From positions 21,552,955 through 21,616,954 of the forward strand of contig NC_088305.1 of assembly GCF_032854445.1 (NCBI RefSeq): DNA of 64,000 nt. Reading direction: 5' to 3'. Under the pieces are notes generated by a model. The model was not told the origin of the DNA and did not search any database. It was given only the letters and a program-made list of their open reading frames with translations. The translations under genes and the position numbers were made by a program. Every line of letters begins with the position of its first letter. Position 1 is the first letter of the stretch. Shown here piece after piece: positions 914-56,600 of the stretch. This DNA is from Liolophura sinensis (lineage: Eukaryota > Mollusca > Polyplacophora > Chitonida > Chitonidae).

Positions 914-3900
914 TCACGCCTTTGCCTTCTTTCCTTTCTTGGCTGCCTGCTGCTTAAAGACGAGATAAAACGAAGAATAAATACATTTTCAAAATTAGGA
1001 GATATTTCAGTTCGTGTTGATATTTCTTGAAAATACGATTGCGTAATAGAAATACGGTGTAAAAATCACCAAAACACACCAATACGGTGCAAGCATCTTG
1101 TAGCAGCATGCATGTGATTCTGGGTAAGGTACATTTGAAATTTGTGTAACATTCTCAGTTTTCATACATTTGACTTTAAATGTGGCCAAAAAGTGGTACA
1201 TCCATCTCCGGTTTTATGAATACAATAACGTCAATATTATTACCTTAGGCTCATTTCTATTTCCTGTTTTTTTTTAATTTATATATATCGGGCGCCATTT
1301 ATGGCCTGCATTCGAAATGAAATCCCGAAAAATATTCTAAAGTTTAAACCGGAGTGATTATGTGAAATATCTCAACGAAGAAACAATGGTTTCTCACCGA
1401 TAAGTTTCCAAACTTAAACCTGCCTTGAAATTTACGATTTATTTATTTATTTGATTTGTGTTTTACGCCGTACCCAATACTTGACTTATACGGCGGTGGC
1501 CAGCATTGTGGTGGGAGGAAACCTGGCAGAGCTTGGGGCAAGCCCACGACCATCCGCAGGTTGCACTCACACTTTCCCATGTACCCAATTAGGTAAAATA
1601 AAGTCCAGTGACGGGAATGGGAATATATCCGTCACTTGTTTAGGAATACTCAAAATGTTGTGTTGTCATCGCATTTGATTTACAGCGTAAATCACCAATT
1701 AAATCAGTGAAATTGGTCAGGTCAAATTTCATTTCTATGGCCGAATCATGTCTAAAATAGTATTTTCAAATCTTGTCACCCGCGCTGTCGTCAAAGTGCT
1801 AAAGATGTACGCGATGAAAACCGGTTTCTCGTAATCTTGAAGTATTTCTGAATTCATATTTCATGATGCGTTATTTCATTATGAATAATTTAGTGTATAG
1901 CGTCGTAATTAATCGAAATATAACCGACGCATCCACTCGGACATCGGAACTTCGCAAACCACGATTTCGAATGATGTTCTAGTTTGAACTCAACCGAGTG
2001 AGTGCGTGCGTGCTTGGGGTTTAACGTCGTACTCAATTTTTCAGTCATATGACGACGAAGGAATTAGGGTGCATGTACGTGTAATGTGCCTCCCTTGTTG
2101 CAGGACGGATTTCCACCGCTCTTTTATTTAGTGCTGCTTCACTGAGGCGACTTACCGAAGGCAAGTAATTTGCCCCGCCCGAGCCATTATACTGATACGG
2201 GTCAACCAGTCGTTGCACTATCCCCTTCATGCTGAACGCCAAGCGAGGAAGTTACAACTTCCTCTTTTAAAGTCTTAGGTGTGACTCGATCAAGGATTGA
2301 CCCTAGATCTACCGGTCCCGAAGCGGACGCTCTACCAACTGTGCTATCCGGGCCGGTCTCAACCGATCTTAGCTACGTTTACGTGTGACCATTTGTCAAT
2401 CATCCCACTGTCGTCACTGCTCTAGTTTTTCTGTAGACTTCTGTATTCAAACCAAACTTGTGTAGTCTTACCTTGCCATTGGCAGATTTGACTGGTTTCT
2501 TTGCTTTAGCACCATTGGCTTTGTTCTGAAAGGAAAGTTGAAGCCAGTGAGTATTTCAAACCGAGCTGATAAAGCTTGTCAAGTAAACCACTTTGGTATA
2601 AATATGGATAAAGCGCACTACAGGTCACATGACTACATGTACAATGGCGGAGGAATATTGGTGTCTTTCTAGTACCGATTTCAGGCGACTTTCAAGTATC
2701 TATTCAAAGAATAAAATCTGGGCTATGTCTATGTATAGTTTTTCAGAATTATTAATCATTTTTTGTTTCATGTGGTTCACAACGTATATTGTCTCTGGAG
2801 GGGTCAGATTTCAACAGGTGTTGTCTGTTTAATACACATTCCGGCGACATGCTTATAGAATGCATTGGTTCAAGCCAGATAATATACTCTTACAATATAT
2901 GTACATACCTTGGCGCTTTTCTGACTTTTAGCCTTTGACCTGTGCAAAAAAAAAATATAACGGACGGAAATAGGATTTATTTATATGTTTATTTCTTTGG
3001 TGTTTTACGCTGTACTCAATATTTGACTTTTACGACAGCGGTCAGCGTTATGGTGAGAGGAAACCCGGCTAGGGGAAACCAACGACCATCCGTAGGTTGC
3101 TAGTAGACCTTCCCACTTACGGCTGAATACGAGGATTCAAAAGGAATACAGCTTACACAGCGTCATGGGTGAGTATCTCGCATGTGTATCTACCTGATCA
3201 GTGTATCCCAGGCAGACTTACCGAGATCCCCTCTAATAATGCAGGATGGGAGCTACAAAATCTCACAAAATTTAAGTTTTAACTGAACTTTAATCTAGAC
3301 CCCTGAAAACCTGCGTACTTTTTTGGCGGACTTTCCTCCTCTTCCTCGTCTTCGTCTTCATATTCATCTTCGTCATCTTCGTCGTCGTCTTCATCTAAAT
3401 CATCGTCATCTTCCTGTGGGCAGTTATTTGATTGGTGTTAAACGTTATATAATTATTCACTGTTTTGTAACGTCATAGTCTAGATTTTTCTCTTACATGA
3501 TGACGTCTTATGTTTAAAAACTAGTTTGTTAGGGTTTGTTATTTTTCTATGTATTTATTTGATTGGTGTTTTACGCCGTACTCAAGAATATTTCACTTAC
3601 ACGACGGTGGCCAGCATTATGGTGGGTGGAAACCGGGCAGAGCCTGGGGGAAACCCACGACCATCCGCAGGTTGCTGGCAGACCTCAAGAGTTATTTTTC
3701 TAGGCAGTGTTTAAAGGATACATGAAATGGAACTATAAGACAAAGATTATGTTTCTATACCAAATGAAGAAAATTATTCCCCTGAATTTGTTTTAATTCA
3801 TTCTGGAACTATTTTATACCTGTTAATTACCCCTCTATTGTGCATATTTTCCGTCAACGGTTGAAAAATTTGTACTATTATATGTTATTACACATGATAA

Positions 3901-6900
3901 TTTGCACATTAAGTAATACCAAAGCGTTTCACGTATCCTTTAATTATCTTTCACACGGATATGTACTTTATTATTGTTTTCTTTACCTTCCACGCCGGTG
4001 TTATAACATTACCTCGTCCATACTCTCCTCTTCGGAACCGTCGTCTCCAATACTGGCGTCAAGTTTGCCTTTCTGTATAAACATGACAAACATGTCGTTT
4101 GTCAGCACGGACTTTTTTTTTTACTGGCGTTTTTGATTTCGTACTCCAAAACTTTTTACTCCTACGTCAGCGGTAAGGATTTCGATTGGAGAATAAATAT
4201 CTGCAGTAATCTACCGTGCTTAATTCACCTGGCGTGACTAGCAAATCTGGTGTATGTAAGAATTTTTGGATTCAAAGTACTTTACTTGCCAGGATTAAAA
4301 ATCTAATGTTTTTTCATTGCGATCAATTATATCCAAGTTCTCCAAGTCTTTGATGGAATAAGCGAGTTATGGCAGTTTCCGATATGAACAAGATCCATCT
4401 ACAGTGACAGGTGGTGAGAAGACAGGACCGCTTTAGAGAACTAAGCCAACGATGGACCCTACTTTGGTTTTAAGGAAAGAACCTTTGCCTTGGCCGCTTT
4501 TTGTGTTCCAGCTTTCCTCTTCTTGGCCATTTTGAGGGGCGATTCTTCCTCATCTTCCGTGTTTACCTCCGTCGTTCTGTACAGTTCGTCCACGCCTTCC
4601 TCCACTGATGCCTCTGCAACGCAGTCAATTCGGAACACGATTCATTCACTGTTGTTGGACGTCATCTTAAAGAATTTTTTCTTTTCACTTATACAATGGC
4701 GACCATTTATACGAGTGAAGGAAACAGGAGTACCAGAGGCAGACAACTGTGACGAACAAACTTTGAGCCGGTTCCATGAACCTCACTTAGCTAAGATTCG
4801 CCTTAAATTGGCATGAAGACGTATGTCATAGAGCTACAAACCGAGCTACATACCGCTCCTAACGAGAAACAGGAATTCTGAACACTCAGAGACCGATTCC
4901 GCAAAGCTATTTAGGAACTATGTCAATTTGTAATACAATTTGTTGTCTCTTGAAATTAAAATTTTGCCAATCTTATCCATGTTGTGTGAAGACAAGTTTG
5001 TCAAAATTTATCCTTTCATCACAAAACACACTAAGCATTGTGAGGTTGTTTCAAATTTGGATTTATCAAAACTGGCTTTGTAGAATAGGCCGAAATTTAA
5101 ATGTCAACATGCATTTGTTAAATACTTTATCAACGTGTCGGTTTTCGTTGTGAAAATACCTAAGTATTTTCCTTACAAATGTAAATGTTACATTTTTCAA
5201 TGTAACATGCGAGAAACGTCAACGCCTTATCTTTGTTTGAAACGTCGCAACGTCATTGGTGGTGCTTTCAAAACTTATGTTCTGAGACTGATGGTTATTT
5301 CAACAGAATATAAATATGTTCGTTTATTAGGAAACTGTGTGTTCGTAACATTATGTTGCAGTAATAACCTGTTCTTAGCATCACTCACAAAATAAAATCA
5401 TATTTAACAGCTTGGTTTTTAGAATATACTCACCCGTTAAATGTTGCGCTGTTATACAAACAGGAGTTCTGTATAACAGCCGCAACATTTAACAGGGTAA
5501 ACGATCCCCAAAACTGACGTCTAAGAAGCACTGTTATATCAAAAACATGAGTAATATTTATTTGATTGGTGTTTTACGCCGGACGCAAGAATATTTCACT
5601 TATACGAAGGCGGCTAACATTATGGTGGGAGGTAACCGGAGAGAGCCCGGGAGAAACCCACCACCATCCACAGGTTGCTGCCAGACCTTCCCACATACAG
5701 CCGGAGAGAATGCCAGCATGAACTGGACTTAAACTCAGAGCGACCCCATTGGTTGAGGCTCCCGGATCATTGCGCGGCTGGAGTGCTACCCCTCTCGGCC
5801 ACGGAGGCCCAAAAACATGAATAAGCAATAAAACGAAAGCCTAAATAACCAATCCAAAATCAAATAGGAAAGATTCCAAGGAAAGTGGTGGCAGAAAAAC
5901 CAGTAAAAAAATGCTTTTGGGGGTTGGGAATGGACCAAACATCCTTGAGTTTAACGATGTTATAACACTTCCCGGACTACAAGACTGTCCCGACCACATA
6001 CGATTGTGCCCCAACAATACAACTTACGCAATCATTCAGACCGAGAGTTAATGAAAAGAGCGGTTGTGAACATGAATCGCCGTCAAAATTTGTGGTTTCC
6101 ACTTGGACCAAATTCCTTTCTCCTTTGACTGCCTTTGGACCGAGGACCGCCTGTAAAATAACATAAATACTGGAAGTCTAAATACCGGGCCAAATACAGG
6201 AAAAACAATAGGCTGGAGACCAAATTACGGGAGATAATTTACCAGGATTCTGATTATCCGAGTTCCTCTCTGTCTGAATAGCAACCTGTTCGTGAGCTTC
6301 TGGTGTCAGCCCGGTTTCCTCTGGCCGCCATCGTATAAGTGAAACATTCTTGAGTATGGCTTAAAACACCAATTACATGAATAAATTATCGGAAGATTAA
6401 ATAAATGGGAAATTACATAGAAAAAGGTGTATATAAATTTATTTCTATAACAAAATATCAGTTTAGGGCCACGAAGCCCTAACCTAGTCCTGTTTTGGGG
6501 TGAACAATGTAAAATTATCCTAGCATACAAAAGGTATTTTGTACCCATCCAGGGTAACCCAATTTTTTTTTGGTCAAATGTCTCAAATGTAACTTGGTTA
6601 GAAGTGGCTAAAATCAGGAAGCAAATCTTATGGAGATTGATTTGAATGGTGTTTTACGCCGTACTCAAGAATATTTCACTTATACGACGGCGGCCAGCAT
6701 TATGGTGGGAGGAAACCAGGCAAAGCCCGGGTGATGTAACAACCCACGACCATCCGCAGGTTGCTGACAGACCCAGTGGAGTTTGAGTACTTTTCTTTAT
6801 ATTACACCCCATGATAGCTCTGAATTGTACCTACATTTTTCAGAAATAACGTATGTGTGAGAAAATCTCGGTCACCGTCCTCTTGATCCACCGACCAGGA

Positions 6901-8449
6901 TACCGCGGGTTTATCTGTCGTCAGCTGACAGCCTGGGTACAGTGTGAGAAAAGAAAAACCCATTTAGTGATAATTCCATAGTACATTCTGAACCTCTGGA
7001 CTAACTTTTCACCAAGCCAGATGAAAGATTTAAAATATGTGTCTAACACTGAACACCTATATGTAAAACATACATGTATGTAAAACGATCAATGTTTAAG
7101 ATTGAGCGAACAATGTGTTATAACACTGACATGGAATGAAACTTGGCTAGGTTTCTCTTAATCATAAGCACGTATAAATTATATACAATATTCCTTATGT
7201 CGGCAGTTGTGAGTGAATGCTTGGGGTTTAACGTCGTGCTTAATTTTTCAGTCATATGACGAAGAGGGATTCCTTAGAGTACATGTACGTGTACGTGTAA
7301 TGTGCCGCCTTGTTGCAGGACGGATTTCCACCGCTCTTTTGTGTAGTGCATTTTGGGAAGGCAAGTAAACCGCACTACCCGAGCCATTATACCGATACGG
7401 GTCAACCTGCCGTTGCACTATCCCCTTCATGCTGAACGCCAAAACAGGAAGTTACAACTTTTATGGTCTTAGGTGTGACCCGACCCAGGATTGGCCCTGG
7501 ATCTACCGCCTCCAGCAGTGGTGTTAGCAGTTGTAAAGATTGAGTTTGTCCAATTGTTAGTCAATGAGCCCATTCTCATGTGTTACTTGTGAAAAGCTGG
7601 TTATTCAATGAAGTGACGTTAATTATGCACGTGATGGCAACCTTAACTTTCAATATCCCCCAGGTCTATCTAGGGCACCCACCCTCGAGTTTTACCTAAA
7701 GCATCACAGTTTATATCACTAACCAGCTTAAGACATGTAACCAACATGAACTTTAAATCGACACGGTAGCCAGAAATATACAAATAATATGGACAGGGCG
7801 CCCTAGAGAGATATCGGTGCCAAAGGCCTGTTTTATGTCGTAGTCTTGGTGGTGATGTAACAAATCTACAAAAGCATTACATGTTCTCGTCAATGTCATT
7901 GTTGTACAAGATGAGTCAGAACTGGAAAAATCAGTGTGTAGTCTTGATACGTTCTGTATATCCTATGTATTCTGAAACTTATTGTGATGTTGTATATTCT
8001 TGTGTTGTATATGTTGTATAAAATAGGGACCACGACGGTGCAAAATTGGGACAAAGACGGTGTAAAATAGGGGCCTGCAGATTTTCCTTTTCTGACAATT
8101 TTAACGTATGGGTGTATGCCCTCACATTTTTTTAACATGCCCCCGGTGTAGGTCATTGTATTTGGCATTTATTTTCCTTTTGAGTTTCAGATTCTTCAGT
8201 TCATTGAAGATTCTTGGATTCAAAATGAACATTTAAAGAAGTGGATCGATCACAAACAACTTTCCGTAACCCCAATTTTACCACTCCCTAGATTTCTTAG
8301 TATGATTATTGGGCATAATTCTTTAATTATATTGCTTTATGAACAGTTCAAAAGCCAAAAAGCTCTTCAGAAACCTTACCCCAAAAATATTCATAATTTG
8401 CATCCGTCAGACGACCGCTGAGGTTCGCAGCTTTCATGTCGGCGGACAT
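914..8449 (-). CDS. Nucleoplasmin-family histone chaperone (NPM-like), ten coding exons, with an in-frame stop in exon 4
   Basis: Coding exons in 5' to 3' order are 8380-8449, 6835-6932, 6028-6150, 5434-5530, 4483-4613, 4013-4072, 3319-3413, 2909-2939, 2472-2525 and 914-952. All join in phase, for about 265 codons. Exon 1 ends in NYEYFWG, the usual start of the nucleoplasmin core. Exon 2 (CQLTTDKPAVSW, HTLFLKN) and exon 3 (AVLGPKAVKGERN, VQVETTNFDG) continue the core beta-barrel. Exons 5-7 carry acidic tracts and exons 8-10 a basic Lys/Ala-rich tail ending KKGKKAKA. Exon boundaries match, as I recall them, those of vertebrate NPM1 (FG/CEL, SLRT/VSLG). Family role: pentameric nuclear chaperone for core histones, with the acidic tracts binding basic histone tails. 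The oddity is exon 4, where codon 14 is TAA, predicting a stop after about 110 residues unless the exon is skipped or the base is wrong. Whether the gene is functional is therefore open. Confidence 0.87.
1437..1585 (-). repeat. SINE-A, 5'-truncated copy
   Basis: Starts with a TTTA-rich tail complement, then the GTTTTACGCCGTAC core, GGTGGGAGGAAACC and CCACGACCATCCGCAGGTTG blocks. The tRNA-like head is missing. Lies between nucleoplasmin exons 9 and 10. Confidence 0.8.
1995..2354 (-). repeat. SINE-B, near full length
   Basis: On the minus strand a tRNA-like head carries an A-box-like TAGCACAGTTGGTAGAGCG and a B-box-like GGTCAATCC. It is followed by a long body and a tail with CATATGACTGAAAAATTG and GACGTTAAACCCCAAGCAC. 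The head looks like a Pol III promoter. It is not a tRNA gene: no cloverleaf closes. Confidence 0.75.
2385..2450 (-). repeat. Dispersed fold-back repeat fragment
   Basis: Shares GTGACCATTTG...ACTGTCGTC...TGCTC with the repeats at 23776-23990 and 24483-24575. Degenerate. Confidence 0.4.
2472..2525 (-). CDS. Nucleoplasmin-like exon 9, basic tail
   Basis: Eighteen codons in phase 0, NKANGAKAKKPVKSANGK, between a TTCAG acceptor and a GTAAGA donor. Lys/Ala/Asn-rich, like the basic C-terminal tails of invertebrate nucleoplasmins. The final exon (914-952) adds QQAAKKGKKAKA and a TGA. Confidence 0.78.
2974..3130 (-). repeat. SINE-A, 5'-truncated copy
   Basis: Diverged core (TTTTACGCTGTACTCAATAT) plus the GGAAACC and CGACCATCCGTAGGTTGC blocks. 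Lies in the intron between nucleoplasmin exons 7 and 8. Confidence 0.75.
3319..3413 (-). CDS. Nucleoplasmin-like exon 7, long acidic tract
   Basis: Thirty-one codons plus two bases, almost all Asp and Glu with one Leu and one Tyr, ending ESPPKK at a GTACGC donor. This is the A2-type polyacidic tract of nucleoplasmins that contacts histones. It joins exon 8 (SKAKSQKSAK, 2909-2939) by completing a Lys codon. Confidence 0.82.
3550..3690 (-). repeat. SINE-A, 5'-truncated copy
   Basis: Well conserved TTTTACGCCGTACTCAAGAA core, GGGCAGAGCCTGGGGGAAAC block, truncated after the CCGCAGGTTGCTGGCAGACC block. Confidence 0.85.
4483..4613 (-). CDS. Nucleoplasmin-like exon 5, first acidic tract and basic stretch
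   Basis: Reads ASVEEGVDELYRTTEVNTED then EEESPLKMAKKRKAGTQ and KAAKAK. ASVEE corresponds to AVEED of human NPM1. The acceptor is doubled: AG dinucleotides at 4614-4615 and 4612-4613 give entry in phase 1 (after exon 4) or phase 0 (directly after exon 3). The donor is unusual: AAG/GTTCTT, or four codon-bases earlier a GC-type AAG/GCAAAG. Exon 6 can be joined in frame with either. KMAKKRK is a plausible nuclear localisation signal. Confidence 0.8.
5434..5530 (-). pseudogene. Nucleoplasmin-like exon 4, disrupted by TAA at codon 14
   Basis: Exactly 97 bases: 32 codons plus one, entered in phase 0 after a CAG acceptor and left in phase 1 at a perfect GTGAGT donor. Exon 5 resumes in the matching phase (G plus AG gives Glu). 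The start reads CFLDVSF and the end TPVCITAQHLT, which fit the family's LDLSF and GPVHISGQHLV segments. The middle (codons 12-21) fits poorly and contains the TAA. That middle is almost the exact reverse complement of the exon's last 25 or so bases: plus-strand arms 5436-5458 and 5470-5493, with an 11-base loop. Exon identity is well supported by order, length and phase. What caused the lesion is inference. Confidence 0.75.
5544..5811 (-). repeat. SINE-A, full-length copy
   Basis: Runs from the ATTTATTTGATTGGTG tail complement through all body blocks to the tRNA-like head (complement of GGCCTCCGTGGCC). It sits only about 15 bases from the acceptor of nucleoplasmin exon 4, so it occupies the branch-point side of that intron. 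Confidence 0.85.
6308..6388 (+). repeat. SINE-A, 3' fragment
   Basis: Contains CGGTTTCCTCTGGCCGCC, ATCGTATAAGTGAAACATTC and AAAACACCAATTACATGAAT. Only the 3' part of the element remains. Confidence 0.7.
6637..6778 (-). repeat. SINE-A, 5'-truncated copy
   Basis: Conserved core and GGTGGGAGGAAACCAGGCA block, ending near the GGTTGCTGACAGACC block. It lies just upstream, on the plus strand, of nucleoplasmin exon 2. Confidence 0.82.
7209..7515 (-). repeat. SINE-B, partial copy
   Basis: Same tail (CTTGGGGTTTAACGTCGTGC on plus), CATATGACGA, GCCTTGTTGCAGGACGG and CATGCTGAACGCCAA blocks as the copy at 1995-2354. The head is degenerate. Confidence 0.75.
8380..8449 (-). CDS. Nucleoplasmin-like exon 1 (start codon)
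   Basis: Seventy coding bases, 23 codons plus one base (phase 1), beginning MSADMKAANL and ending NYEYFWG at a GTAAGG donor. The ATG is chosen because it gives the short leader typical of the family before the YFWG motif. The reading frame is open further upstream without another convincing start context. Confidence 0.85.
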
Positions 8450-10155: not shown

Positions 10156-11066
10156 TCAGTTTTACAAACATTAAAGGTACACAATTCGTTTTCCCCGGGC
10201 ACACATGTTGAGTATCTGCATGTACTAAAGGTACATACTTTGTGTATTAAAGCTATACAATTCGAGTTCGGATGAATACATGTACTAAAGGTATACAATT
10301 CGAGTTCCTTGGGTACACGTTTCAGCTCATTTTCTGTAATAAAGCTATATAATTCGAGTTCCTCGGGCACTCGGGTTAAGTACATGTACTAAAGGTATAC
10401 AATTCTAGTTCCTCGGGCACTCAGGTTGAGTACATGTACTAAAGGTATACAATTCGAGTTTCTCGGGCACACTTTTCGGCTCATTTTGTTTACTAGAAGT
10501 ATACAATTCGAGTTCCTCGGGTACACAGGCTGAGTACATGCACTAAAGGTATACAGTTCGATTTCCTTAGGCACACGTTTCAGCTCATTTTCTGTACTAA
10601 AGGTATACAATTCGAGTTCCTCGGACACTCGGGATGAGTACATGGACTATAGGTATACAGTTCGAGTTCCACAGGCACACGTTTCATCTCATTTTCTGTA
10701 CTAAAGGTACACAATTCGAGTTCCTCGGGCACTCGGGATGAGTACATGTACTAAAGGTATACAATTCGAGTTCCTCGGGCACTCAGGATGAGTACATGTA
10801 CTATAGGTATACAATTCGAATTCCACAGGCACACGTTTCAGCTCATTTCCTGGACTAAAGATATACAATTCGAGTTGAGTATATACACGTACTAAAGGTA
10901 TACAATTCGAGTTCCTGGCGCACTCATGTTAAGTATATGCACTTACTAAAGGTATACAATTCGAGTTCCTCGGGCACTCAGGTTGAGCATATACGTGTAC
11001 TAAAGGTATACAATTGGATGTCCTTGGGCGTACGTTTCAACTCATTTTCTGTACAAAAGGTACATG
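10156..11066. repeat. Minisatellite, about 50-bp unit, 17-18 copies
   Basis: The unit contains CTAAAGGTATACAATTCGAG, then TTCCTCGGGCACTCGG and TGAGTACATGTA. A variant second half, GCACACGTTTCAGCTCATTT, recurs irregularly, so two unit types are interspersed. Copies diverge by several percent, more at the edges. Lies between the nucleoplasmin-like and CNBD-like genes, with no coding evidence. Confidence 0.9.
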
Positions 11067-13592: not shown

Positions 13593-16500
13593 ATGTCGCA
13601 GAATGTAGACAGAGTGATTGAGGTGATCTCCAAGGATACCGGAAGTCGTCAGGATTACGAGATCGAGGCTATAGCGCCCTGGCTTCGGAAGAGAAGTCAG
13701 CTGTTGCAAGGTGTAGAAAAAGGTTGGTTAACAATTAGCGCGTTGGTGGGGTAATGTATACTTCTAACCACAAAAAAATAAATAAATACACATGTCTATA
13801 TACTAGTCATCAGCTTGTTTCCAGTGTTGTTTAGTTGTTGTTTTTTTTGTTGGGGGTTTTTTGGAGGTTTTTTTGGCTTTGTGGGGGAAGGATAAGTCGA
13901 AAGCTATATTGGTGGGTGGAATTTTTAATGGCAAGACACATATATGGGAGAATAAATTAGTGGACAGATAAACTAATTGAAAAATAAGGAGCTGATGAAC
14001 ATATTGACGAGGAGGTTGACCTGATTCCTTTGTTTTTAATATTATTTTATGTTAAACGTAAGGAAACACATCTAGCATTTTGAGTAATTTTAACCGTTGG
14101 GCGTCTAATAAATCGCAACTAACATCACTGCGAATTCTTTTTACCTAATTCTGATTATGCCATGTTGCTAGGGAACGCGTAATTTGTTACTGTTTAAGCA
14201 CTTATATGAACAGTTGGAATAAAACCCTCACTGAGGTAAACTGGCAAGAGGCCGGCTACCACACTGTGGTTGCTGGTTGCCGGTTTTACTCCCAATACTG
14301 TCCGAGTTTAATTATATTAGCTGATAAAATAATACATTGATAGTTGGAAGCTGAGAAAGGCTGCATTGTTTTCGTTTCTTTGTTGGTCTTCGATTGGATG
14401 TCAGATTTCCTATCTGAGAGTATTGCCTCTTTCCTGCTGGACTGTATCGCGAGCAAACATGGTCGGATGGAATACCACTCTGTTATTCAAATCTGATCAT
14501 TATGTTTTTTCATGTGTCACGAAGTTCAACATCAGAGATAAAGATAACTACACAATGTAGAGCGGACTCCATGGTCTGCTAACTTTAAACAATCCATATG
14601 TAGTAAAGGATGTGAAAGATATATACCTAATATAATTGAGGACGTACGATATACCTGCCTTCGCTGGATTTAATGGGTACCACAGAGTGTCCAGAGGGTA
14701 CAACTTATATGTACCCATATTTGTACAATACCAAAACGGTTTCCTGTTTGGCAGACTTTACAGCAAGAGGAACAGTTATAATTTTGACAATGTAAATTAT
14801 CCTTACGTATGAGTCCTACATATCTCGCTTTGTAGCATTTGGTACAACCTTTGTGTTATGTGACGATTTCAATCAACGCCACAAATCACTACTGCAAAAA
14901 TTAGTGTGTCAGGGTTATTCCATCAAACGACTTCACTCTGAGGTTTTATAATGAGTATACTTCTCTTGTAAGTAAATATGTACAGAGCGTGCAGAATCTC
15001 TGACACTCTGCTTCATGATCGTGTCTAATGCCGCACAACCAGGCGCGAGGGCTGTATATCCATTGTGCTGAATTAGATTGCCATGTTGGATATGCGGACA
15101 GTTGCAATCAAAGCGACACTGAGACACATATTTTATTGTCGACAACGTATATTCTGTCACGGTACACCATTTACAATACTGATTTCACTCTTTCACCTAG
15201 AACATTCCTGCGTCTTTCCAACATCATGCTACTCGTTGCATCATTTCGTCCTAACTTCGTACTTTGCATAGTTTCTTGGTTCTTTGGTGGTTTATGTTGA
15301 ACGTCGTTTTGGGGATTGGCCTTGCGATCATTGACCTGAAACGTCCATTCTGGTTGATGGATTAACTACGAATGTATGTTTCGACGGATAGTTTGTAGTT
15401 TACACCGGGTACATGTCTGTATATACATTTATACAGCTGCAAGCTACATTAGATGGCTTAGCATTATCATAGACGGTTAGCTGCGGAAGGTCGTGGGTTT
15501 CCCCCGGGCTCTGCCCGGTTTCCACCCACCATAATGCTGGCCGCCGTCGTATAAGTGAAATATTCTTGAGTACGGCGTAAAACACCAATCAAATAAATAA
15601 ATAAATCATAGACGGTTAGAAAGGAACAAAGACATCTTGTCTCATTTACTCTATCATTCTACTACTTCTAGCGGTGCTATAATTGTCAAGCCTTGCAATA
15701 TAATCCCTCATACAGATACCCGATAAGGGCATTAGACATAATACCTAGCTGACATTTATAGGCTTAATGAAACCATTTTTAAAACAAGAAAATTTGTCCG
15801 CAAAATTTTCTAATTTACCAATCACGATCTATATCATAGATTTTGTTATACACTCACTATGTAGACGCGTAGATCATACAAGGAAACAAGTCATTGTTCC
15901 GATCTCCCCAAGCATTTATTCACTGGCCTGTGCCTTGTTATAAATAATGGAATTTTATTTCTCCAGCGGTTGATTACCTTCGGCCGCCATCGCTGTATAG
16001 TGGGTATGTCTTTGTATCGTACACTATATTATATTGCAACCAGAAACGGCTAACACTGTCAGACTGCATTCCTCATGGCATTAATATAGGCTGGCTTGAT
16101 TGCCCCGAACAAAGGGCTCCTGCCCCTATATCCAATATCAAACCGTGTATCGTCCGACAGTCTAGCGAGTTGAAGCCATACGGGCAATTAAGTTGTTCAC
16201 GTGATCTCATGTTTCATTTAACTTAGGTGTAATATTACGATATATCTAGTGGTATGTGTATTGTTGGATGACAAAGCCTTATACGGGATATCATTAAGGT
16301 GTCCGGGTCTCACGAGTCTAAATTACTATAGTCACATCGTAATGTGACAAAAGACGTTTGCCTGTGAAGGAGTTTAACGAAAGTTCACGTTGTGCGATTT
16401 TGTCGTAAATCGAATGTAAATATGACACACGCTGAAGCCATGTAGACATCATGCGATTGTCGAGTCGACCCTTGACCAGAGCCGTCGAATTCATCCAGTC

Positions 16501-19500
16501 GAATTTCATACGATTTTTGGCATTGGACAAATGGCATCGTGTGGACGCGTCATATTTCATACGATTTTTGGCATTGGACAAATGGCATCGTGTGAACGTG
16601 GCATATTTCATACGATTTTTGGCATTGGATAAATGGCATCGTGTGGACGCGTCATATTTCATACGATTTTTGGCATTCGACAAATGGCATCGTGTGAACG
16701 TGGCATATTTCATACGATTTTTGGCACTGCACAAATTGCATCGTGTGAACGCGTCATATTTCATACGATTTGTAGCGTTCAACAAATGGCATCGTGCGAA
16801 CGTGGCATATTTCATACGATTTTTGGCATTGGACAAATGGCATTGTGTGAACGTGGCATATTTCATACGATTTTTGGCATTGGACAAATGGCATCGTGTG
16901 AACGCGGCTTATTTCATACGATTTTTGGCATTGAACAAATGGCATCGTGTGAACGTGGCATATTTCATACGATTTTTGGCATTGGACAAATGGCATTGTG
17001 TGAACGTGGCATATTTCATACGATTTTTGGCATTGGACAAATGGCATCGTGTGAACGTGGTATATTTCATATGATTTTTGGCATTCGACAAATGGCATCG
17101 TGTGAACGTGGCAAATGAAATACGTGTGGATTTGACCTGTTTTCATTCTGAAACCAGCATCGTGTGAACGCAGCTTTATGTTCCATTTTAAATCATACTC
17201 TTTTTCTTTCCTTCTGATGCCTTTCATGTAGTTATTTTTGCTTTCAGTCTGTTTTTTTTTTTCGTTGGCCTCCCTAATTCCTTTATCATGTTCCTTCTTC
17301 ACTTTACTGTCCATTTTAAATGATTATAAACTTCATTACCACATTTTTTTGCTTTAAACCTTAATTCTTTCCTTTGTCCCCTCTTTCCAATATCAGGTAC
17401 TGTTTTGTATGGAATGAAGAATAAAGAAATCAAGATGGCAGCACAGTAATTGGTTTTAATACAGTAAATTAATTAATAAAGCAGACAGGTCATCTAAATG
17501 TGATTAATCATTCCATCTATTTAACAGCCGTACTCTACGACATCTTGAGGAACTGTTACCACCAGCGTTCTCAGAAAGATGACGTCATCATCCGCCAGTG
17601 TGAAATCGGTGAAACGTAAGTAGGCCTACACTTGGATTTTATATACTATATCTGAATAGCTAGACTTAACTATCAAGTGAAACTGCAATGTCCCGTTTCA
17701 TAGAATTGAAAAATACATTGATTATGTGTGTGGAGTTTTAAACCAGTTTAGCGAAACTATAAAGTAGTCATTTACAATCCAAGTTTAGTTGACAGGTAAG
17801 AATTGGATTTTAATACTGTTGGAGATGGATAGCTTAGTGGAAAGCTGAAAGAAGATTGAGGGGCTTAGGCATTGTCTATCTCTACATCTGGAGATAGGAT
17901 ACCAGATGTAATCCAGCTGTTAGGGAAAACCTGGGTGTGTTCTTAGAATTCTCAAAACCAAAACCAGCTTGCTTAAATTTGGCTAGATTTATTATTTCAC
18001 CTTTCAAAAAAACCAGATTAAAACACACTTTTTTCAAAAAACAAAAAAACGATTAAAACACACTTTTAGACATATTGTGTATACTAGATAGGTTTAGTAC
18101 ATCATCTATGACTTGTAATGTGTCTGATAATATAAGGCAAACATGAACTGTTTTCCTTTTTTACCATATTCACCATATTTCACTTCTATGCATTTAGAAG
18201 CTGGTGGGTGACCAAATATACATTACAGAATACTTATATATGGACATCAGATTCTTCGATTATCGGTGACTATAATAAATGAGGCAGTTATTATCCATAA
18301 ACAATACCGTGTTTTTTTTGGTTTCTTTTTTTTTTGTTTTTGTTTTTTCTATATTTCTGAGGATAAGATTACGTGTGTAGCTTTTACTGAGGTAATTAAT
18401 ATTGATATATCACACGACTGAGGGAGAAAAATTGGTTGAGACAACCTTGGGTTTCGAACCAGCTATAGCTCAGAGTCAGACATTCTGGCGAAGGCGAAGA
18501 AGGCGAAGAAGAAAACATTCTGGGGACTGGGTGTTTCTGGTTCGCAACCCGATGTGGTATGAACGAATTTTTAGCCATAGGTCGCATAGAATCTCTGTGT
18601 TTACCAAGAATGTGAAACTCCCAAAATCTTCTTCTTTGTATAATAGATAGCTTATAATTTATCCAAAACCAGTTAAATGGATAACAGGCCACCAGGCTTT
18701 ACATTTACATCTGCTTAAAATGATACTGTGTTTTTCAAAAGGTTCTTTTTCTTTTCTTCTTTTTCCCACAGCGAGTAAGTATAGTCAAAAACTGTTGTGT
18801 CTGGTGTTACCCTTTTGCTATATGAATCTGTTCCTAGCTAAACAGCTGACGGTATTCAAATAAAATGGAAACATGCCATCGTTTTTCTTTTTGCACGTTC
18901 TGACTTACTGCACAACTCTTTTATTCTTCGTCTGGTTTTAAACTTGACCTAATTTTTGTGAACTGCAGGCAATATGGTTCTTTCCATCAAGGAAATCGCT
19001 TGTCGTTGTCACGTTTGATTGTGTTGACTGGCATAACTTCACACATTAAACCTTGTTTGCACCATGCATGCTCAGTGCACCTCTTGTTTCTTTCCTCACG
19101 CTATATATCCACGCAAATTTATTCGTAACAATTTTTTTAACACACGCATAGTAACACATGTGTATTCAACAATATCAAATGTTGCATTGGTTCCTGTTAT
19201 ATATATGCCGATTTTCTTGATAAAAAGTACTCACCCAAACTATATGGCTATCTTTTCTTTGAAATTAATCTCTTATTTATTTATTTTTTTGTGAATGATA
19301 ATTTGCTTGCATTGAATACAGTGTTTGGATGAACCAGTTCTTTAGTAATACGTGACATGTAATTGAGTTATCCATTTGGTTGGATAGATTAAAGGAATGG
19401 AGAGTAAATAAATAAATAAATTTCGTTTGTGTCGGGTTGTTTATTTGATGGAATATTCGGTGTCAGGCAGTGTAATTATATACATATCTGTAAGCATCCT

Positions 19501-53613: not shown

Positions 53614-56600
53614 ATGGTGAAGCCGACTAAACGACGCACGGCCTCCCTGGAGGTGGTCAAGAATCTAATCAAAGGTGTGGCTTACATCAAGCAGCAGAAG
53701 CAGGTGGCGAACTTTGATCGACTGGCCAAATACATGCAGCGAGAGTATGGCTTGAAGTACGGGGAGACCCAGAGAGAGGCTCATAATGCAGTGGAGGACA
53801 ACCTACTTGTCTCATACACCGCCATTGGCAACAAAGGGTCAAAGGTCGGCGTGGAGCAAGAGGGATTCAAAATACCCGATGAGGAATCCCCAGTGGTGAG
53901 GCATTTACATGTATATTCAGTCAAAAAGTAATACTGCCTTGAAATTTCCTGAAGTTAAAAACAAATAAATAAATGTACATTCTGCGTGTAAAGCTATAAA
54001 GGTGCTGCTGATATCAGGAGTCACTATGACAATACTCTGCCATCAAAGTAACACTGCATCAAAATTTCCAAAAGTTAAAAACAAATAAATAAATGTGCAT
54101 TGTGCGTGTAAAGCTATAAAGGTGCTGCTGATATCAGGAGTCACTATGATGATACTCTGCCATCAAAGTGACACTGCATCAAAATTTCCTGAAGTTAAAA
54201 ACAAATAAATAAATGTACATTCTGCGTGTAAAGCTGTAAAGGTGCTGGTGATATCAGGAGTCACTATGACGATACTCTGCCATCAAAGTGACACTGCCTC
54301 GAAATTTCCTGAAGTTAAAAACAAATAAATAAATGTGCATTGTGCGTGTAAAGCTATAAAGGTGCTGCTGATATCAGGAGTCACTATGATGATACTCTGC
54401 CATCAAAGTGACACTGCATCAAAATTTCCTGAAGTTAAAAACAAATAAATAAATGTACATTCTGCATGTAAAGCTATAAAGGTGCGGGTGATATCAGGAG
54501 TCACTATGACGATACTCTGCCATCAAAGTGACACTGCCTCGAAATTTCCTGAAGTTAAAAACAAATAAATAAATGTGCATTGTGCGTGTAAAGCTATAAA
54601 GGTGCTGCTGATATCAGGAGTCACTATGATGATACTCTGCCATCAAAGTAAGACTGCATCAAAATTTCCTGAAGTTAAAAACAAATAAATAAATGTACAT
54701 TCTGCATGTAAAGCTATAAAGGTGCTGCTGATATCAGGAGTCACTATGACGATACTCTGCCATCAAAGTAAGACTGCATCGAAATTTTCTGAAGTTGAAA
54801 ACAAATAAATAAATGTACATTCTGCATGTAAAGCTATAAAGGTGCTGCTGATATCAGGAGTCACTATGACGATACTCTGCCATCAAAATAAGACTGCATC
54901 GAAATTTTCTGAAGTTGAAAACAAATAAATAAATGTACATTCTGCATGTAAAGCTATAAAGGTGCTGCTGATATCAGGAGTCACTATGACGATACTCTGC
55001 CATCAAAGTGACACTGCCTCGAAATTTCCTGAAGTTAAAAACAAATAAATAAATGTACATTCTGCGTGTAAAGCTATAAAGGTGCTGCTGATATCAGGAG
55101 TCACTATGACGATACTCTGCCATCAAAGTGACACTGCCTCGAAATTTCCTGAAGTTAAAAACAAATAAATAAATGTACATTCTGCGTGCAAAGCTATAAA
55201 GGTGCTGCTGATATCAGGAATCACTATGACGATACTCTGCCATCAAAGTAACACTGCATCGAAATTTCCAAAAGTTAAAAACAAATAAATAAATGTGCAT
55301 TGTGCCTGTAAAGCTATAAAGGTGCTGCTGATATCAGGAGTCACTATGATGATACTCTGCCATCAAAGTGACACTGCATCAAAATTTCCTGAAGTTAAAA
55401 ACAAATAAATAAATGTACATTCTGCATGTAAAGCTATAAAGGTGCTGGTGATATCAGGAGTCACTATGACGATACTCTGCCATCAAAGTGACACTGCCTC
55501 GAAATTTCCTGAAGTTAAAAACAAATAAATAAATGTGCATTGTGCGTGTAAAGCTATAAAGGTGCTGCTGATATCAGGAGTCACTATGATGATACTCTGC
55601 CATCAAAGTAAGACTGCATCAAAATTTCCTGAAGTTAAAAACAAATAAATAAATGTACATTCTGCATGTAAAGCTATAAAGGTGCTGCTGATATCAGGAG
55701 TCACTATGACGATACTCTGCCATCAAAGTAAGACTGCATCGAAATTTTCTGAAGTTGAAAACAAATAAATAAATGTACATTCTGCATGTAAAGCTATAAA
55801 GGTGCTGCTGATATCAGGAGTCACTATGACGATACTCTGCCATCAAAGTGACACTGCCTCGAAATTTCCTGAAGTTAAAAACAAATAAATAAATGTACAT
55901 TCTGCGTGTAAAGCTATAAAGGTGCTGCTGATATCAGGAGTCACTATGATGATACTCTGCCATCAAAGTGACACTGCCTCGAAATTTCCTGAAGTTAAAA
56001 ACAAATAAATAAATGTACATTCTGCGTGCAAAGCTATAAAGGTGCTGCTGATATCAGGAATCACTATGATGATACTCTGCCATCAAAGTAACACTGCATC
56101 GAAATTTCCAAAAGTTAAAAACAAATAAATAAATGTGCATTGTGCCTGTAAAGCTATAAAGGTGCTGCTGATATCAGGAGTCACTATGATGATACTCTGC
56201 CATCAAGTAACACTGCATCAAAATTTCCTGAAGTTAAAAACAAATAAATAAATGTACATTCTGCATGTAAAGCTATAAAGGTGCTGCTGATATCAGGAGT
56301 CACTATGATGATAATCTGCCATCAAAGTAACACTGCATCGAAATTTCCTGAAGTTAAACATATAAATTATAAATGTGCATTCTGCATGAAAGGTGCACAA
56401 AATCACCATTGATTGGCAGGTGTAAGAGATAGGGAAGTCCAGGCTATGCCAAGGGTAAGCTGAATTTTAGGTATTTCACATTTATTCAAGTGTAATGAAA
56501 GCGGCTGGATTTAACTGACGAAATCCGATCACCACTGTCAGCTGTGATCATCGATTCTGTATGCCTTTACGTTAACTCACAGCCGATTTCAGGATATGCA

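Follow-up and report, generated by a model that had tools for sequence, protein, structure and literature searches.

The window, by which we mean the whole 64-kb stretch of DNA analysed here, carries on its minus strand (8449-914) a gene of the nucleoplasmin family made of 10 exons, whose borders were set by splice consensus, phase and likeness to the family. Once joined, the exons amount to 795 nt, or 265 codons, the last of which is a normal stop codon, and the only interruption of the reading frame is a TAA at codon 111, within exon 4. The first-pass annotation had described the other nine exons as open; indeed, none of the nine contains a stop, and the phases agree once the exons are joined. 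The exons are as follows:

8380..8449, minus strand: exon 1, from the ATG, encoding MSADMKAANLSGRLTDANYEYFW(G); refound by tblastn in the assembly
6835..6932, minus strand: exon 2, nucleoplasmin core; refound by tblastn in the assembly
6028..6150, minus strand: exon 3, nucleoplasmin core, phase 0 at its end; refound by tblastn in the assembly
5434..5530, minus strand: exon 4, 97 nt, with the palindrome and the in-frame TAA
4483..4613, minus strand: exon 5, with a basic stretch KKRKAGTQKAAKAK like the nucleoplasmin basic region, and a weak-looking donor, AAG/gttctt
4013..4072, minus strand: exon 6
3319..3413, minus strand: exon 7, with a long D/E-rich acidic tract
2909..2939, minus strand: exon 8
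2472..2525, minus strand: exon 9
914..949, minus strand: exon 10, lysine-rich end and normal stop TGA

The protein encoded by exons 1-5, read with an X at the stop, matches the Pfam Nucleoplasmin domain (PF03066) over residues 22-128 with 51.3 bits, for a cut-off of 25.8, and also matches seven distinct sequences of solved structure, all named nucleoplasmin, nucleoplasmin-like or nucleophosmin (best E 6.2e-07). The acidic tract of exon 7 and the basic region of exon 5, which we take to be a nuclear-localisation signal, are both encoded, as in the PF03066 family, and the basic ESPLKMAKKRKAGTQKAAKAK of exon 5 is aligned with ESPPKAVKRPAATKKAGQAK of 8vhi. Like nucleoplasmin and nucleophosmin (PF03066; 8vhi, 1xb9, 2p1b, 1nlq), the chiton gene encodes a core domain, an acidic tract and a basic tail; unlike them, it lacks the GSGP loop and its core is broken by a stop, the uninterrupted reading frame expected of PF03066 members being lost at codon 111 of 265. 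When exons 1-3 and the start of exon 4 were used to look for paralogues in the assembly by tblastn (E up to 10), three matches were obtained, namely the gene's own exons 1, 2 and 3 only; this is a weak search, as queries made with 8vhi and PF03066 missed even this gene and are uninformative on absence. Candidates for an alternative exon 4 were also sought by scanning the six frames of the window for the motif [GSA][ST]G[PA][VLI]; two sites came up, at 15667 (plus strand) and 2324 (minus strand), neither of them family-like.

Exon 4 runs from 5530 to 5434, with an entry phase of 0 and an exit phase of 1, in agreement with its earlier description as an exon of exactly 97 bases with correct phases. 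Its codons read C F L D V S F G D R L P C (stop) M L R L L Y R T P V C I T A Q H L T plus one base, and the in-frame TAA that had been reported is located at 5491-5489. The splice sites had been called strong, which is true of the donor, CGG/gtgagt, since it fits the consensus at 8 of 9 places and is joint best with two others of the gene's nine. The acceptor, ending gatataacag, is only fair: 11 pyrimidines were counted in the 17 upstream bases, an average value given a range of 9 to 14 for the nine acceptors of the gene.

The middle of this exon is nearly the reverse complement of its 3' end, and the two together form a palindrome with the following parts:

5432..5461, minus strand: source arm, 30 nt, coding for VCITAQHLT and reaching the donor GT, family-like
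5462..5465, minus strand: hairpin loop, 4 nt (11 nt, 5459-5469, without the three innermost pairs)
5466..5498, minus strand: copy arm, 33 nt, near-perfect reverse complement of the source arm
5489..5491, minus strand: in-frame TAA, codon 111 of 265, inside the copy arm

All 30 bases of the source arm are paired, with no substitution across the 30 pairs, and the arms differ by three single-base extras, all of them in the copy arm, at 5469, at 5480 or 5481 (which are equivalent) and at 5494. The source arm extends 2 nt into the intron, 5432-5433 being the GT of the donor. The palindrome itself had been recognised by the first-pass annotation, with two gaps and an 11-nt loop; full pairing gives three extras and a 4-nt loop instead, and the earlier figures are right once the three innermost pairs are not counted.

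Several measures place this palindrome beyond chance. Exon 4 has a gapped inverted-repeat score of 22, and none of 4000 dinucleotide shuffles exceeds 13; with its flanks the hairpin scores 24, and the sole other hairpin of at least 14 within the 64-kb window scores 15. When folding energy is computed in 66-base windows taken every 4 bases, the hairpin is the lowest on the plus strand and the second lowest on the minus strand, the mRNA-strand fold reaching -39.2 kcal/mol over 66 nt. In addition, the DNA fold of 5428-5502 has a z of -11.7, with 0 of 200 shuffles as good.

The assembly was then used as a reference for copies and for background. The version searched comprises 609,464,459 bases in 632 contigs, the published Liolophura japonica assembly being about 31 kb larger (609,495,693; PMC11068029). 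A 75-base hairpin query, searched on both strands, matched only itself, with no second copy found, and a 201-base query hit six places besides itself, each of them in a dispersed repeat that borders the query and lies outside the hairpin. That this search found no further match to the hairpin speaks against a mobile element. As for the background, 230,000 bases in 23 pieces of the assembly gave 16 peaks of at least 13 and 6 peaks of at least 22; among these six, three are (AT)n, one (L028) is a multi-copy fold-back repeat, one (L029) recurs about 0.7 kb away and one (L014) has no second copy found. Tight hairpins are a minor regular feature of this genome, and comparable ones are rare, not unique; it is nevertheless improbable to meet one this strong in a given exon of 97 nt.

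Two of these peaks, and several repeats of the window, deserve description in their own right. L014:5288-5360 (C4:20005288-20005360), outside the window, is a tight palindrome with a score of 29, for which no second copy was found, and is another possible template-switch product. L028:8820-8920 is a MITE-like element that folds back on itself; diverged copies of it are numerous in the assembly, with 56 matches listed when both arms are counted. Within the window, a satellite-like array with a 120-base unit lies at 53925-56392 (20.6 copies, 94% matches), and a few kb from the nucleoplasmin gene, on its upstream side, there are two tandem arrays (16503-17113 and 10270-11062), whose units measure 51 and about 50-258 bases. 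A dispersed repeat, GGTGTTTTACGCCGTACTCAAGAATATTTCACTTATACGACGG..., occurs in both orientations in the nucleoplasmin introns and their surroundings (5560-5700, 3550-3700, 6640-6780, 15480-15600 and others).

Comparison with the family indicates which part of exon 4 is native. The 3' arm, PVCITAQHLT, aligns to PVYVSGQHL and PVHISGQHL of solved nucleophosmins and is therefore taken as the original sequence. The middle reads C-stop-MLRLLYRT where three aligned relatives have about ten residues ending in GSG, and the GSGP loop is missing, with MLRLLYRT-PV here versus RLKxGSGPV or GPL in all three of these relatives, which are distant and were compared at the protein level. By hand count, ten residues lead from the second proline of TPPV to the GSGP proline in the relatives and ten lie between LP and PV here, an equal spacing that makes a length-neutral overwrite possible; MAFFT instead opens two gaps, one of a single residue in the loop and another of two residues upstream. 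Both MAFFT and phmmer align MLRL with the invariant RL of the family, one codon off the hand count, so that the native middle may be partly preserved. As RL falls near that place in 2.5% of random middles, this is mild evidence that an RL-coding core perhaps pre-existed and was already partly complementary to the AQH codons. Pre-existing partial complementarity is described as the usual starting point of quasi-palindrome template switching (PMC8604942).

The best explanation for exon 4, and in our judgement a probable one, is a short-range template-switch (fold-back) mutation that gave rise to a null allele or a very young pseudogene. About 30 nt of the middle of the exon would have been overwritten, during DNA synthesis, by the reverse complement of the adjacent 3' end. 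In a within-strand switch the source is made before the copy, so the plus strand of the window would be the nascent one: if the nascent strand folded back, 5432-5461 would be copied first, the strand would then fold around 5462-5465, template on itself up to about 5498 and finally rejoin its proper template. Such a replacement would delete the conserved GSGP-loop codons and happen to put a TAA in frame, while leaving the phase intact, along with both ends of the exon and its splice sites. That copying went from the 3' arm to the middle is supported by the likeness of the 3' arm to relatives, which the middle does not share. Moreover, a random 30-nt middle of the same composition contains a stop in 43% of cases, so that the stop can be seen as a by-product, with no separate cause needed.

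A template switch had already been proposed by the first-pass annotation, and no other reading accounts as well for the palindrome together with the stop and the lack of a GSGP loop, the ancestral middle being inferred; the 3' arm was likewise said to have been copied backwards, and here the direction is retained and the clean copy is not. Copying between the switch points is indeed not exact, since all 30 source bases pair but the copy has three more. Because a simple switch copies perfectly, these extras lower the template-switch claim without deciding it. They could represent later insertions, error-prone synthesis on a folded template, or unconverted native bases; extras without substitutions sit badly with later neutral decay, which should give substitutions more often than indels. 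It also weighs against a switch that such tight hairpins arise otherwise in this genome, for instance in the L028 fold-back repeat, though the search found no second copy of the exon 4 hairpin.

The class of mutation is known, while the chiton exon 4 instance is new. In template switching, adjacent sequence is copied as its reverse complement and one event can make a hairpin (PMC8794818). The gold-standard switch events of great apes are given a median of 12 nt and a maximum of 128 nt, with 5.5% of them length-neutral, and are depleted in coding regions (PMC7954356). Exon 4 is like these ape short-range switches (PMC7954356), and like those producing RNA hairpins (PMC8794818), in that an adjacent reverse-complement copy would have replaced local sequence and makes a hairpin; a length-neutral outcome, possible for exon 4, is reported among them as well (PMC7954356). 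In contrast to the ape median of 12 nt, the copy in exon 4 is 30 nt long, sits in a coding exon and has three extra bases, and ape switches are called against an ancestor, whereas the ancestral middle of exon 4 is inferred (PMC7954356). Quasi-palindrome template-switch mutations are cited for T4 rII, E. coli rpsL and thyA, and yeast CYC1 (PMC8604942). As in these cases, inverted-repeat arms would have been made alike and a coding gene would lose its function, but unlike in them the arms of exon 4 still differ by three single bases and a pre-existing repeat is hypothetical (PMC8604942).

A variant of the explanation is that an existing imperfect inverted repeat was converted, its arms being homogenised outwards in patches by template switching. 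The ancestral quasi-palindrome would have consisted of ATGTTGCGGCTG, coding for MLRL, and CAGCGCAACAT, around the AQH codons, the extra bases would be unconverted native ones, and the gene would be broken here too. We hold this to be unlikely; it overlaps with the best explanation, being also a case of template switching, and the likelihoods given to the readings need not sum to one. In its favour, MAFFT and phmmer put MLRL on the family's [T/I/V][F/L]RL, where RL is found in only 2.5% of random middles, and homogenisation of arms in coding genes is described in yeast (PMC8604942). It needs, however, about one codon gained before MLRL and one lost after it, relative to the relatives shown, and an extra base in the core would be erased by one continuous copying event. 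A different possibility is that the individual carries a normal exon and that the palindrome is a library or consensus error, as might be thought of an assembly that is haplotig-purged and built from 14X HiFi only (PMC11068029), and in which a second version of exon 4 was not found. This is improbable: a fold-back of a single molecule should not outlast consensus, copy and source differ by three bases, and the same assembly has another tight palindrome without a found second copy (L014:5320).

The hairpin might also be functional as a dsRNA platform. ADAR could edit the UAA stop, located within the near-perfect 30-bp stem, to UGG; alternatively, the hairpin could be a newborn microRNA-like precursor. 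The exon 4 hairpin is comparable in size with microRNA precursors. Like those proposed to be born by template switching, it has small bulges, but it differs from them in lying inside a coding exon and in having no Rfam match at gathering score (PMC8794818). Coleoid molluscs are reported to recode through A-to-I editing (PMC8382921), microRNA hairpins have been proposed to arise by template switching (PMC8794818), and the Rfam matches with E up to 1 are microRNA families in nine cases out of nine (best E 0.0015). All nine, however, are under their gathering scores (27.1 bits versus 73 for the best), as any clean hairpin may be, and the GSGP loop stays missing even if the stop is edited. No paper listed by a search for de novo microRNA by template switching was on point, judging by titles and the opening lines of abstracts. 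A functional hairpin thus has no direct support and is very improbable; if it were true, the hairpin would carry its own remedy, nucleoplasmin output being gated by ADAR editing of UAA to UGG, or else a newborn small-RNA hairpin would have been caught at its origin within a coding exon. The least credible of the readings is that splicing avoids the palindrome, through an internal donor, 16 or 28 nt into exon 4, that is joined in frame to exon 5. Two of the eight GT sites of exon 4 do restore the full downstream frame, giving 237 or 241 aa, but these donors, gttttg and gtttac, are poor matches next to the standard one (8/9), and in the product the core would lack its GSGP region as well as its TAQHL end.

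Other routes around the stop were tried and discarded. A hairpin acting through exon skipping or readthrough had been suggested, a proposal for which we find no support; skipping exon 4 shifts the frame and gives a 113-aa product. Internal acceptors (17 AG sites in 300 nt of intron plus the exon) give 164 aa at best. Translation restarting at the ATG of TAAATG would yield 153 aa that lack the beginning of the core, and there is no reason to expect it.

Coming back to the consequence of the proposed template switch, the TAA truncates the predicted product at 110 aa, in exon 4 of 10. In the truncated protein the core would be left without its final part, and the acidic tract and basic tail would be absent; mRNAs with such early stops are normally degraded as targets of nonsense-mediated decay. 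This nucleoplasmin copy is probably non-functional. Its likeliest status is either that of a segregating null allele, retained when the diploid assembly was collapsed by purging, or that of a pseudogene of very recent origin. The assembly was made with hifiasm from 14X HiFi reads of one individual, haplotigs being removed by purge_dups, and the RNA for the L. japonica project was taken from another individual (PMC11068029). A null allele or young pseudogene had been among the readings suggested earlier, and it would remain the likeliest status given that there is no certain second lesion in the 795-nt CDS.

The age of the lesion can be estimated from the gene's own codons, in which 123 of 2367 single changes lead to a stop, and from its 39 splice and start bases, with indel:substitution ratios assumed to be 0.05-0.15. 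With these assumed ratios, an unconstrained gene would have a further lesion with 95% probability by a neutral divergence of 0.016-0.026, and at a divergence of 0.0124 the chance of no further lesion is 0.10-0.24. The lack of a certain second lesion thus points to a neutral divergence below roughly 2%, similar to the heterozygosity of 1.24% given for Liolophura japonica (PMC11068029), and the lesion is probably no older than the standing variation of the species.

One site nevertheless deserves mention as regards a second lesion. The donor of intron 5, AAG/gttctt (window 4477-4483), fits the consensus at 6 of 9 places, a count common to four other donors, and, unlike the gene's other eight donors, has no consensus match at +3 to +5; an in-frame GC donor, AAG/gcaaag, lies two codons upstream as an alternative. 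The intron 5 donor is possibly a weak or a decayed site, that is, a second lesion, and if it has decayed, the pseudogene would be older.

To our knowledge, template-switch mutations have seldom been catalogued in this animal group. Exon 4 would provide a readable example of how a single replication error alters about ten codons, builds a hairpin and kills a conserved histone chaperone gene. It also serves as a warning: when a diploid assembly is purged, the haplotype that is kept can be the one in which a gene is broken. Finally, if the lesion is segregating, it would offer a direct measure of the standing frequency of such null alleles in wild, highly heterozygous invertebrates.
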